Shown here piece by piece: positions 36,844 to 42,671 of a stretch of DNA of 64,000 bases. Each line of letters begins with the position of its first letter. Position 1 is the stretch's first letter. The DNA is from Halorubrum depositum (GTDB lineage: Archaea; Halobacteriota; Halobacteria; Halobacteriales; Haloferacaceae), in assembly GCF_007671725.1 (NCBI RefSeq), contig NZ_VCNM01000002.1, forward strand, positions 186,001-250,000, read 5' to 3'. The translations under genes and the position numbers were made by a program. The notes under the pieces were generated by a model, which was not told the origin of the DNA, searched no databases, and saw only the letters and a list, made by a program, of their open reading frames with translations.

Positions 36844-37705
36844 GGACGACGCCGACGGGACCGGTGATCGACGCCTCGTGTTCCGAGGCGTCACGTCCCG
36901 AGACCTCGCGCTCGCGGCAGCGATCGCGGTCGCCCTCGTGGCCGCGACCGCGGCGTTCCCGGCGCTCGCCGACGCGCAGGGTGCCTACGAGATACCGGTC
37001 GACCGGCGGGGAGACCCGGCCGATCTGGCCGAACCGACCGGATCCGCGTGGGGATCGGCGGAGACCGTGGAGATGCCGATGACCAGCGCGGGCGCGGCGG
37101 TCCCGCAGGGCTCGGAGACGGCGGTCGAGGCCGCTCGCGTGAAGGCCGTTCGGACCGACGAACGGCTGTTCCTCCGGGTGTCGTGGTCGGACCCGACCGC
37201 CAACGCCTCGACCGACGGGATCCGTGAGTTCGCCGACGCCGCCGCGGTCCAGTTCCCGGCTGCGCCGACGGATCGACCGCCGCTCGCGATGGGGTCGACG
37301 GAGAACCCGGTGAACGTCTGGTACTGGAACGGCGCCGGCGCGTCGGAGTCCCTGCTCGCCGGCGGCCCGGGGAGCACGACAGAGATGAACGGGTCGGCGG
37401 TCCGGACGGCGGCGACCCACGAGGACGGTCGGTGGACGGTGGTGTTCTCCCGGCCGCTCCCGAGCGACCGCGCGAACGTCACCGACCTCACCACCGAGGC
37501 GGACACGAACGTGGCGTTCGCGGTCTGGGAGGGCTCGAACGGCGAGCGGTCCGGGCGGAAGGCCGCGAGCGAGTGGTTCTACCTCTCGTTCACCGACGAC
37601 ACCGGTGCCCCCTACGAGATACTCCTCTGGACCGTCGCGGGGGTCGCCGTCGTGTTCACCACGCTCGTGACCGTCGAGGGGATCCGCCGGACGAGGGGTG
37701 AGTGA
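36833..37705 (+). CDS. Type II DMSO-reductase family heme b subunit (ethylbenzene dehydrogenase gamma-like)
   Basis: 290 residues. A hydrophobic signal or anchor (residues 25-48, ending near ADAQ) leads into a beta-rich extracytoplasmic domain (VKAVRTDERLFLRVSWSD, VNVWYWNGAG, FAVWEGSNGERSGRKAASEW). It ends with a C-terminal membrane helix and a basic tail. This layout matches the heme-b gamma subunits of EbdC/DdhC/SerC type, where Met and Lys bind heme; candidate Mets are in the VEMPMTSAG segment. It probably passes electrons to NarH. It couples to narJ by a GTGA overlap. Confidence 0.85.
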   Translation: MRREDDADGTGDRRLVFRGVTSRDLALAAAIAVALVAATAAFPALADAQGAYEIPVDRRGDPADLAEPTGSAWGSAETVEMPMTSAGAAVPQGSETAVEAARVKAVRTDERLFLRVSWSDPTANASTDGIREFADAAAVQFPAAPTDRPPLAMGSTENPVNVWYWNGAGASESLLAGGPGSTTEMNGSAVRTAATHEDGRWTVVFSRPLPSDRANVTDLTTEADTNVAFAVWEGSNGERSGRKAASEWFYLSFTDDTGAPYEILLWTVAGVAVVFTTLVTVEGIRRTRGE

Positions 37706-38484
37706 CCGTGTCCGAATCGACCGCCGAACGCGACGGCGAGTTCGAGGGGTCGGAGAACCCCGACCGTCGCGCCCCGGACGAGGCCGTCGACGCCGAGACG
37801 GGCGCCCGCGGGGCGGTCTACGGGCTCCTCGCGAGCGCCTTCGACGAGCCGACGCCGGAGCCGCACGAGGAGTTCGCCGACGGCTCCGTCGACCGCGCGA
37901 TGGCGACGCTCGTCGAGCGGTCGGGGCTCGACGTCGACCCCCCGGACCTGACGGTCGACGACGACCGCGAGACCCTCGCGGCCCGGTACAACGACCTGTT
38001 CGTCGTCGGCTACTCCGAGGTGATCGACGGGACGGACGGGACGGTCGAGAACCAGGGCCCGCCGGCGTCGCTGTACGAGTCGACCTACCGGTCCGACGCC
38101 TCGTGGAACGACGTGAACCTCGACCTGGCGCGGGCGTACGAGCACTTCGGCTGCGAGATCGGCGGCGACGAGCGCCGCCACCACGACAACCTCCGGCTGG
38201 AGCTGGAGTTCGCGGGGTACCTCTGCCGGCTCGCCGCGGCGACCGAAGGCGACGGGGACGGCTACGACCGCGCGCGGCTCGACTTCCACGACCGCCACCT
38301 CTCGGTGCTCGCCGGCGGGCTCGACGACGCGCTCGATTCCGAGCCGGGGACCGGCGTGTACGGTCGGCTCGCCGCGTTCCTCGCGGAGTTCGTCGCGGCC
38401 GACGTCTCGGACCTTGCGGCCCGGCTCGACGTCGGCGCGGGAAGCGGCGCGGAGTCCGACGGCGACGGGGGTGAGGGCGCGTGA
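37702..38484 (+). CDS. narJ: NarJ/TorD family molybdoenzyme chaperone
   Basis: 260 residues, all-helical. The family patterns include a central YNDLFVVGY with PPASLYESTYRSD and YEHFGCEIGGDERRHHDNLRLELEF, typical of TorD/DmsD/NarJ chaperones. It should bind apo-NarG and its Tat signal during cofactor insertion. The start is a GTG at 37702 overlapping the previous stop; a second GTG at 37708 is an equal alternative. The C-terminus is low-complexity. Confidence 0.9.
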   Translation: MTVSESTAERDGEFEGSENPDRRAPDEAVDAETGARGAVYGLLASAFDEPTPEPHEEFADGSVDRAMATLVERSGLDVDPPDLTVDDDRETLAARYNDLFVVGYSEVIDGTDGTVENQGPPASLYESTYRSDASWNDVNLDLARAYEHFGCEIGGDERRHHDNLRLELEFAGYLCRLAAATEGDGDGYDRARLDFHDRHLSVLAGGLDDALDSEPGTGVYGRLAAFLAEFVAADVSDLAARLDVGAGSGAESDGDGGEGA

Positions 38485-40301: not shown

Positions 40302-41657
40302 ATGACCGATTCCACCACCGACCGACCGACCGCGGACGAATCGACCCCCGAGAACCGACCGGAAGACGGAGAGAGTACGGACGCCGACGGTTCGGGCCTC
40401 TCGACCGACGACGTCGAGGCCGCGCTCCGAAAGGTCCGCGACCCCGACGCGGAGGTGAGCGCGTTCGAGGCCGGCGTCGTCGAGGACCTCTCGATCGACG
40501 ACGGCACGGTCGCGATCGAGGCCGACCTGCGCGAGTTTCCCCCCGACGCGGCCGAGCGGGTGTCGGCGGCCATGGTGCGGGCCGCCGCCGACGTCTCCGG
40601 CGTCTCCGACGTTCGGGTCGAGCAGGTCGATCCGAGCCCGGACCTCGACGGCCGGGAGTCGGGGATCGGGGCCGCAGACAGGGTGATCGCGGTCGCGAGC
40701 ACGAAGGGCGGCGTCGGCAAGACGACGGTGGCGACGACGCTGGCGTGCGCGTTGGCGGCCGGAGACGGCGACGCCGGGGGAGGTGTCGACCCCGCCGTCG
40801 GGCTGTTCGACGCCGACATCTACGGCCCCAACGTCCCCGAAGTGGTCGACGCGGGCGGCCCCGTCTACAGCGACGACGACGGGAACCCCGTTCCGATCGA
40901 CGTCGGCGGGCTGGAAGTGATGAGCGTGGGGCTGCTCTCCGGCGACGGCCCGCTCGCGTGGCGGGGCGCGATGGCCCACGACGCGCTCTCGGACCTGTTC
41001 GAGACGGTCGCCTGGAGCGACCCCGACACCGTCGTCGTCGACATGCCGCCGGGGACCGGCGACGTGGCGCTGACCACCCTCCAGGAGGTGCCCGTCGACG
41101 GCGTCGTCCTCGTCACGACGCCGTTCCACGCGGCGGTCTCCGACACCGCCCGCGCGCTGGAGCTGTTCGAGGAGAACGAGGTGCCCGTCCTCGGCGTCGT
41201 CTCGAACATGGGGGAGTTCGTCTGCGACGAGTGCGGCACTCCCCACGACCTGTTCGGCGGCGACGACCCGATCGAGGCGCTCGGTCTGCCGGTGCTCGCC
41301 GAGCTCCCGTTCGATCCGGAGATGCAGTCGACGCCGGCTCCGTCGACCGACGCGCTCCCCGAGGGCGCCGACGCGCTCGCGGGCGCGGTTGACGAGCGGT
41401 ACGAAGAGGTCTGGACCGTCGACCCGCCCGAGGACGCCGTCGATCTCCGGGGCCTCGATCCGGGGACCCGAAAGGAGCGCGTCGCAGAGCGGTTCCGCGA
41501 ACTCGACGCCGGCGAGGAGTGTCTCGTCGTGAGCGACCGCGACCCGGCGCCCGTCCGGGAATTCCTGCTCGACCTGGTCGACGCCGACGCGCTCCCGAGC
41601 TTCCGCGTCAAGCGACAGAACCCGGAGACGTGGTTCGCGAAGGCGACGCGGCCGTAA
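40302..41657 (+). CDS. DUF59-Mrp-DUF2249 fusion ATPase
   Basis: 451 residues in three parts. Residues 33-110 form a DUF59/MIP18-like domain. Residues 125-375 form an Mrp/NBP35 P-loop ATPase with deviant Walker A STKGGVGKTT (133-142), VDMPPGTGDVAL and a metal-binding CDEC pair (Cys308, Cys311). Residues 381-451 match DUF2249 (VDLRGLDPGTRKERV ... ECLVVSDRDPAPVREFL). Mrp proteins carry or deliver Fe-S clusters. The last gene of the operon, it starts 40 bases after the HEAT gene; the ATG at 40302 is used because the longer upstream frame is antisense-like. Confidence 0.9.
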   Translation: MTDSTTDRPTADESTPENRPEDGESTDADGSGLSTDDVEAALRKVRDPDAEVSAFEAGVVEDLSIDDGTVAIEADLREFPPDAAERVSAAMVRAAADVSGVSDVRVEQVDPSPDLDGRESGIGAADRVIAVASTKGGVGKTTVATTLACALAAGDGDAGGGVDPAVGLFDADIYGPNVPEVVDAGGPVYSDDDGNPVPIDVGGLEVMSVGLLSGDGPLAWRGAMAHDALSDLFETVAWSDPDTVVVDMPPGTGDVALTTLQEVPVDGVVLVTTPFHAAVSDTARALELFEENEVPVLGVVSNMGEFVCDECGTPHDLFGGDDPIEALGLPVLAELPFDPEMQSTPAPSTDALPEGADALAGAVDERYEEVWTVDPPEDAVDLRGLDPGTRKERVAERFRELDAGEECLVVSDRDPAPVREFLLDLVDADALPSFRVKRQNPETWFAKATRP

Positions 41658-42068
41658 TCGCCCTTCTCGTTTCTGTCGTACGTGTCCGTAGGTGAGACGT
41701 TCTCTTCTGGTCTCGATCGGCACGGGCACGGCGGTGGTCGTATATAAATGACACTGCGGTGGCGCGCCCCGGTGAGCGGCCCAGAGGGCCGCGAGCCGAC
41801 GGTGCGAGGGAGTCGCTGGCGGCTGTCGCCGCCAGCGACGAGGCTGGGGAGGCGTGGGGTTCGGTTGCGGTGCTGTGCGGGGCGGGACTCAAAGGGGCAG
41901 TCGCGCTCGGCGAACCCCAGCGACGCAAGGACCGCAAGGAGGGAGCGTGAGCGACCGACTGAGGACCGCAGCGAGCTGTGGGAGCCGAGCGCGACTGGGG
42001 CTTTGGACGTGTTCACCGCAGCGTCGCCGGCGACTTATAAATCACTGACAGCAACACCGTGATCCGAC
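41658..42068. other. 411-base gene-free region holding a multi-hairpin element
   Basis: Between the Mrp gene and the convergent phosphatidyltransferase gene. The first 80 bases show nothing special; 41741-42047 are the structured element described separately. The 13-base CGACTTATAAATC occurs twice, at 42031-42043 and 42065-42077, the second covering the phosphatidyltransferase stop codon. Arginine-rich short frames here are not genes. Confidence 0.7.
41741..42047 (+). repeat. Structured intergenic element with three hairpins, candidate interspersed repeat or non-coding RNA
   Basis: Three inverted repeats lie in order. Hairpin 1 is GCGGCCC/GGGCCGC with loop AGA (41776-41792). Hairpin 2 is a perfect 12-bp stem with loop TGTC (41812-41839). 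Hairpin 3 is long (41890-42005): CAAAG pairs with CTTTG, then a GGG/GGG internal loop, a perfect 14-bp stem (41898-41911 with 41984-41997), and an inner 7-bp stem with one bulge (CCCCAGC 41915-41921 with 41975-41982). A TATATAAATG box at 41741-41750 would place a transcript start close to hairpin 1. Related flanks, TATAAAT-GA-CACTG on the left (41743-41756) and TATAAAT-CACTG on the right (42036-42047), could be an eroded duplication. From memory, similar blocks recur in Halorubrum genomes; this needs a search. Confidence 0.6.
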
Positions 42069-42671
42069 TTATAAATCGGACCACGCGCCGAGGAACCGCT
42101 GGACCGCGGTGAGGTGGCCGACCGCGGCGAACAGCGCGAGCAGGAGGCCGACGACGTTGAGCCCGGCGACGACCGGCGCCGCGTAGACGGCGGCGACGAG
42201 GCCGACGGCTCCCATCAGCGCGAGCCGATCCGCCCGGCCCAGGAGTCCCCCGTACTCGCGGCCGATGCCGACCGCCTGGATCTGGGTGCCCATGTACGAA
42301 GTCATCAGGACGCCGGTGACGGCGAGGAAGCCGAGGGCGTACGCCTCGATCCCGACCGTGAACCCCGCGATGATCGCGATGTCGGCGTACCGGTCGAGCA
42401 CGTGGTCGAGGAGGTCGCCGCCGTCCGAGGAGACCGCCAGGTGACGGGCGAGCGCGCCGTCGACGAGGTCGAGCCAGCCGTTGAGCAGGACGCAGACCGC
42501 GCCGACGGCGTAAAACAGCGGCTCGCCGACCGCGAACGCGCCCGCGGCCGCGACCGCCACGCCGAACGCGAGGACGCTCACCTGGTCTGGCGAGAGCCCG
42601 AGCCGGGCCGCGGCGCGCACCCACGGGCCGAGCAGCCGGTCCGCCACCGAGCGGTACTGGTCGAGGGTCAT
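42069..42671 (-). CDS. CDP-alcohol phosphatidyltransferase
   Basis: 200 residues with about six membrane helices. The catalytic signature D-G-x2-A-R-x8-G-x3-D-x3-D is complete (DGALAR, then GDLLDHVLD). It transfers a phosphoalcohol to a CDP-linked archaeol for membrane lipid synthesis. The acceptor (inositol phosphate, glycerol phosphate or serine) cannot be told from the motif. It ends next to the structured element and lies downstream of the kinase gene on the same strand. Confidence 0.93.
   Translation of the reverse strand: MTLDQYRSVADRLLGPWVRAAARLGLSPDQVSVLAFGVAVAAAGAFAVGEPLFYAVGAVCVLLNGWLDLVDGALARHLAVSSDGGDLLDHVLDRYADIAIIAGFTVGIEAYALGFLAVTGVLMTSYMGTQIQAVGIGREYGGLLGRADRLALMGAVGLVAAVYAAPVVAGLNVVGLLLALFAAVGHLTAVQRFLGAWSDL

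Follow-up and report, generated by a model that had tools for sequence, protein, structure and literature searches.

A non-coding block at the end of the nitrate reductase cluster of Halorubrum depositum represents a dispersed element of the Halobacteria that does not code for protein, and comparison of its many copies argues that the plus strand is under selection to fold when single-stranded, most probably as RNA. Confidence is strong for the element's copy number, range, covariation and folding strand, moderate for RNA rather than DNA as the form of that strand, and weak for any specific function.

Anatomy of the window copy

Within the window, the 64,000-nucleotide stretch of the H. depositum genome that was analysed as a whole, the element occupies positions 41741-42018 plus a 3′ tail, a non-coding block of ∼280 bases. 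It is flanked by a gene for a NUBPL/Mrp-type P-loop NTPase, which ends at 41657 and forms the end of the nitrate reductase cluster (delta subunit gene at 37702-38484), and by a convergent CDP-alcohol phosphatidyltransferase gene on the minus strand. An initial annotation, made from the letters of the window alone, had seen no credible gene here, and none emerged: a 104-aa open reading frame has no Pfam match, and the conserved linker changes length between copies with no 3-base period (70/59/58), on which grounds a protein-coding reading was rejected. The block has a predicted minimum free energy of -152.1 kcal/mol (z = -5.0), and 0 of 200 shuffled versions folded as well.

On the plus strand, the 5′ edge of the element is a GCGGTGG block (41756-41762). 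Every feature named in the initial annotation was found at its given position, and the three inverted repeats among these features are parts of three hairpins. Hairpin 1 (41763-41806) consists of two helices separated by a GA/GA internal loop and contains a 7-bp stem (41776-41782/41786-41792), while hairpin 2 (41812-41839), the most variable module, is built on a perfect 12-bp stem (41812-41823/41828-41839). A near-invariant G-rich linker, GAGGCTGGGGAGGCGTGNGG...GGGACT (41840-41889), leads into hairpin 3 (41890-42005), the class-wide core. Its compound arm (41890-41911/41984-42005) is 22 nt long and 86% complementary, with an outer CAAAG/CTTTG closing stem, a GGG/GGG internal loop and a 14-bp stem, and its tip is branched and carries alternating GA/GA loops. 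This architecture of hairpin 1, hairpin 2, G-rich linker and branched hairpin 3 is fixed across copies. Extra small hairpins, such as GAGAGCGAAGCTCTC, occur in the loops of hairpins 2 and 3 in the manner of expansion segments (L178 and L190 of genome G007; L106 of genome G003).

In Halorubrum copies the core is followed by a 3′ block, GGACGTGTTCACCG in the window (42005-42018; consensus GGAGGTGTTCACCG). The 3′ tail (42019-42077) holds two copies of CGACTTATAAATC, at 42031-42043 and 42065-42077, the second of which covers the stop codon of the phosphatidyltransferase gene, as had been noted. Elsewhere the tail often repeats a 57-base unit in tandem that is near-identical within a locus and different between loci (L021, L023, L091, L069, L188); these tails look like local duplications.

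The TATA-like box reported upstream of hairpin 1 was found as TATATAAA at 41741-41748. Its self-palindromic consensus, TTTATAAA, is conserved among Halorubrum copies only: 54 of the 91 Halorubrum copies with readable 5′ ends match it in at least 7 of its 8 positions, it usually ends 6-8 bases before GCGGTGG, and nothing like it was seen upstream of 16 copies read from other genera. A minority of Halorubrum copies have a further AT-rich box upstream. In archaeal promoters the TATA element is centred ∼26 bases before the transcript start, so the observed spacing would place an RNA start inside the first arm of hairpin 1. Such spacing is at odds with a full-length transcript, and a promoter belonging to this element, which the initial annotation had entertained, is at most putative.

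Covariation and the folding strand

Compensatory changes, which the initial annotation had looked to homologues to supply, were abundant in the stems. In an alignment of 49 copies, picked from good matches so that truncated copies are under-represented, 98.4% of pair cells contained standard pairs, compared with 84.8% after shuffling, and versions of the alignment that had been slid out of register were 26-42% paired. Double changes affected 31 of the 46 pairs and 292 cells against 80 expected, although these counts are not independent events because the copies are related and exchange segments. The result extends to 39 matches from other genera, which lay outside model building but were aligned by the model: 96.5% of cells were paired (32-44% in slid versions), with double changes in 37 of 46 pairs and 295 cells. 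Even hairpin 2, which occurs as 145 distinct sequences in 203 copies, had complementary arms in 194 of the 203, as opposed to 38 after shuffling. The covariation thus exceeds what column composition accounts for and is found on one strand, the pattern by which structured RNAs are recognised.

The identity of that strand is given by G-U pairs, which outnumber A-C mismatches by 156 to 8 on the plus strand and by 52 to 13 in other genera. Since the relation is reversed when the other strand is read, it is the plus strand that folds. Three GA/GA internal loops and the GGG/GGG loop are kept in 45-48 of the 49 copies (GGG/GGG in 47), while the pairs beside these invariant loops covary freely; that mismatched loops are retained amid changing pairs counts against complementarity of purely mutational origin. 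The single-stranded blocks are likewise strongly conserved across families. Together, the covariation, the asymmetry between G-U and A-C and the invariant loops argue that one strand is selected to fold, most likely in the form of RNA.

Copy number, range and turnover

The initial annotation had proposed an abundant element with further copies, and both points were borne out. A BLAST search with the whole block gave 42 matches in the H. depositum genome at E ≤ 1e-3, including the window copy, and a covariance model built from the 49 copies found 78, a figure that includes truncated copies. A pattern for the linker (≤2 mismatches) occurred 75 times in this genome and 102, 127, 130, 15, 152 and 69 times in six congeners with genomes in one to three contigs, as against 0 or 1 occurrence of a reversed control pattern. 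Among 31 full copies in H. depositum, the best paralog identity was 78-89% and no aligned pair exceeded 89%, which gives no hint of a recent burst. No even spacing of the kind expected for a structural role was seen on the chromosome: copies are random on contig C1 and, if anything, clustered on C2. None of the 78 matches falls on the two smallest contigs, which total ∼133 kb. Copies are found right at the ends of contigs or close to them (C3:1-196 and C2:1386123-1386291), and the repeat therefore probably breaks assemblies.

The initial annotation's statement that similar blocks occur in Halorubrum proved correct for all 34 other Halorubrum genomes searched, but understated the range, which takes in essentially the whole class Halobacteria. 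Named records with a match came almost exclusively from Halorubrum species, the others being Haloarchaeobius iranensis and Halobium salinum. In a class-wide sample, 165 of 194 Halobacteria genomes and 58 of 65 genera matched the model at E ≤ 0.001, ∼150 of the 165 with E-values no higher than 1e-8; all of these are minimum counts because only 9 candidates per genome were scored, and several other genera had at least 100 copies per genome once more candidates were included. A phylum-wide draw placed all 20 of its matches within the same order and none in 124 genomes outside it. Many non-Halorubrum copies consist of the hairpin 3 core alone (∼125 bases). Outside Halorubrum, copies often form inverted pairs, head to head or tail to tail (G058, G073; L377, L378, L355, L363, L372), with 7 head-to-head pairs among the 63 strong matches listed.

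Distant relatives were found on plasmids of Halobaculum, Natrinema, Halorussus, Haloarcula, Haladaptatus, Halorientalis and Haloplanus, and are unannotated at nearly all of the matched places. A viral or plasmid origin of the element was rejected: the exact linker pattern occurred in 0 viral contigs, phage records gave no match, and among plasmid records the window copy had no more than partial matches, in just 4 of them.

Placement was scored for 107 copies against gene calls from a simple codon-usage caller. Copies are intergenic and occur preferentially at gene 3′ ends and in convergent gaps. The upstream gene is on the same strand for 68 copies (64%), with a median distance of 38 bases between its stop codon and the copy, and on the opposite strand for the remaining 36%; 43 copies (40%) lie in convergent gaps, whose share of all gaps longer than 100 bases is 21%. 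Close relatives with unchanged neighbouring genes can differ in whether a site carries a copy. Counted by hand from coordinates over 400 kb that are collinear between H. depositum and a congener, 11 sites were shared, 2 were private to H. depositum and 6 to the other genome, and a copy present at one site in four species was missing from that site in a fifth. At two shared sites that were inspected, orthologous copies differed wholesale in their hairpins and agreed in their linkers, a patchwork for which gene conversion between copies would be the simplest reading. No target-site duplication was visible at the few sites compared by hand, where flanks diverge too fast for exact ends to be placed. 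In another genome (G007:C1 ∼648969-654910), a 6-kb island absent from H. depositum has a copy on either side, the two being inverted and carrying the same extra hairpins. The island was rejected as an autonomous partner, as it holds a sugar ABC-transporter-like operon (translations read by eye).

Alternative explanations and known systems

How the element might work can be sketched from these comparisons. In some Halorubrum copies, transcription may start from the TATA box or from the upstream box; alternatively, copies may be transcribed by read-through from the gene just upstream, a route that would not be general because 36% of copies follow an opposite-strand gene. The RNA would then serve a cellular protein or ribonucleoprotein as a folded scaffold, and copies would spread rarely, by a route not encoded in themselves, and be kept alike through gene conversion. 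RNA is the likeliest form because the fold is elaborate and its non-canonical motifs are kept. Assembled in full, as a structured RNA with no Rfam relative, present in most of the Halobacteria with dispersed copies numbering up to ∼150 per genome, serving in trans as the scaffold of a ribonucleoprotein and spreading without an IS200/605-type enzyme, the proposal is possible but tentative.

A folded single-stranded DNA would give the same covariation and strand bias as an RNA. The element could in that case be a substrate for a trans-acting recombinase or HUH transposase, as are REP sequences and PATEs, with the strand bias reflecting recognition of one DNA strand. Several observations fit: copies are numerous, intergenic and often placed after stop codons, some genomes have head-to-head pairs, target duplication was not seen at the hand-compared sites, and TTTATAA beside the left end might serve as a target. 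Against this, the Y1 transposase domain (TnpA, PF01797) gave 0 matches in five genomes that carry 75 (H. depositum, G000), 127 (G015), 130 (G018), 37 (G041) and at least 102 (G058) copies, and the TnpB domain (PF01385) had no match in the last of these, results on which dependence on IS200/605 elements was rejected. In addition, no aligned pair within H. depositum exceeds 89% identity, and the conserved tip and series of GA loops go far beyond a REP hairpin in complexity. We consider the DNA explanation unlikely.

It is also rather doubtful that the element acts in cis at gene 3′ ends, as a transcript boundary, mRNA stabiliser or convergent-gene insulator within the RNA of the upstream gene. 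The short median distance from the stop codon of a same-strand gene in 64% of copies and the near doubling in convergent gaps (40% vs. 21%) are in its favour, but a 3′UTR element would be expected nearly always in sense, whereas 36% of copies lie behind an opposite-strand gene, and site occupancy differs between close relatives whose neighbouring genes are unchanged. Least credible, and already disfavoured, is that these are old MITE-like repeats, the hairpins of which are mended by template switching during replication (quasi-palindrome correction) with no selection on the fold. Rare mended loops do occur, with CCC/GGG in place of GGG/GGG or TC in place of GA, and in hairpin 3 of L090 and the G007 copy at C1 ∼830732 GGG/GGG has become CCCC/GGGG, a mended palindrome. 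Against template switching stand the excess of G-U over A-C, which needs strand-specific selection, the retention of the mismatched GA/GA and GGG/GGG loops by more than 90% of copies, and the conservation of single-stranded blocks across families. The MITE-like alternative in the initial annotation is not supported by the anatomy either: terminal inverted repeats were not found, the inverted repeats being internal hairpins rather than termini and the two TTTATAAA boxes a palindromic 8-mer; no target-site duplication was visible at the few hand-compared sites with their fast-diverging flanks, and the 31 full H. depositum copies include no near-identical recent ones.

Structured RNAs that are both large and conserved are, as a rule, parts of basic machinery or of mobile elements. 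A structured element at ∼100 places per genome across an archaeal class, and outside Rfam, would represent a new RNA machine or else a new mode of repeat spread and maintenance; both possibilities can be tested directly in the model haloarchaea for which genetics and RNA-seq are available. The element resembles Rfam families in being a structured non-coding RNA by covariation, and membership of a known family was rejected: at gathering score, Rfam 15 (4227 models) had no match in the window or in 20 loci from other genera save one ordinary tRNA, and permissive searches gave chance-level matches or none. No description of the element was found among open-licence papers, and an earlier account elsewhere is possible.

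Close in kind are the PATEs (palindrome-associated transposable elements) of Haloquadratum walsbyi, which are reported to be related to IS605-type transposons (PMC3119063). Like these, the element is short, palindromic, transposase-free and abundant in haloarchaea, with no target duplication seen. It appears to differ in that carriers with 75-130 copies lack a detected Y1, and G058 a TnpB domain also, and in that its conserved unit is a multi-domain covarying fold. TnpB omega-RNAs of IS200/IS605 elements, reported in archaea (PMC12558985), are likewise structured, multi-copy and strand-specific. The present element, in contrast, is solitary at the loci examined and abundant in G058, with its lack of a PF01385 match. 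Bacterial REP/BIME and ERIC sequences share with it an intergenic location, many copies, a bias to gene 3′ ends and sometimes inverted pairs. In anatomy they are unlike the element described here, which is ∼125-280 bases long, with three domains, conserved linkers and non-canonical loops. It differs from them further in that a RAYT-type Y1 protein was undetected in several carriers, in being archaeal, and in the selection of one strand.
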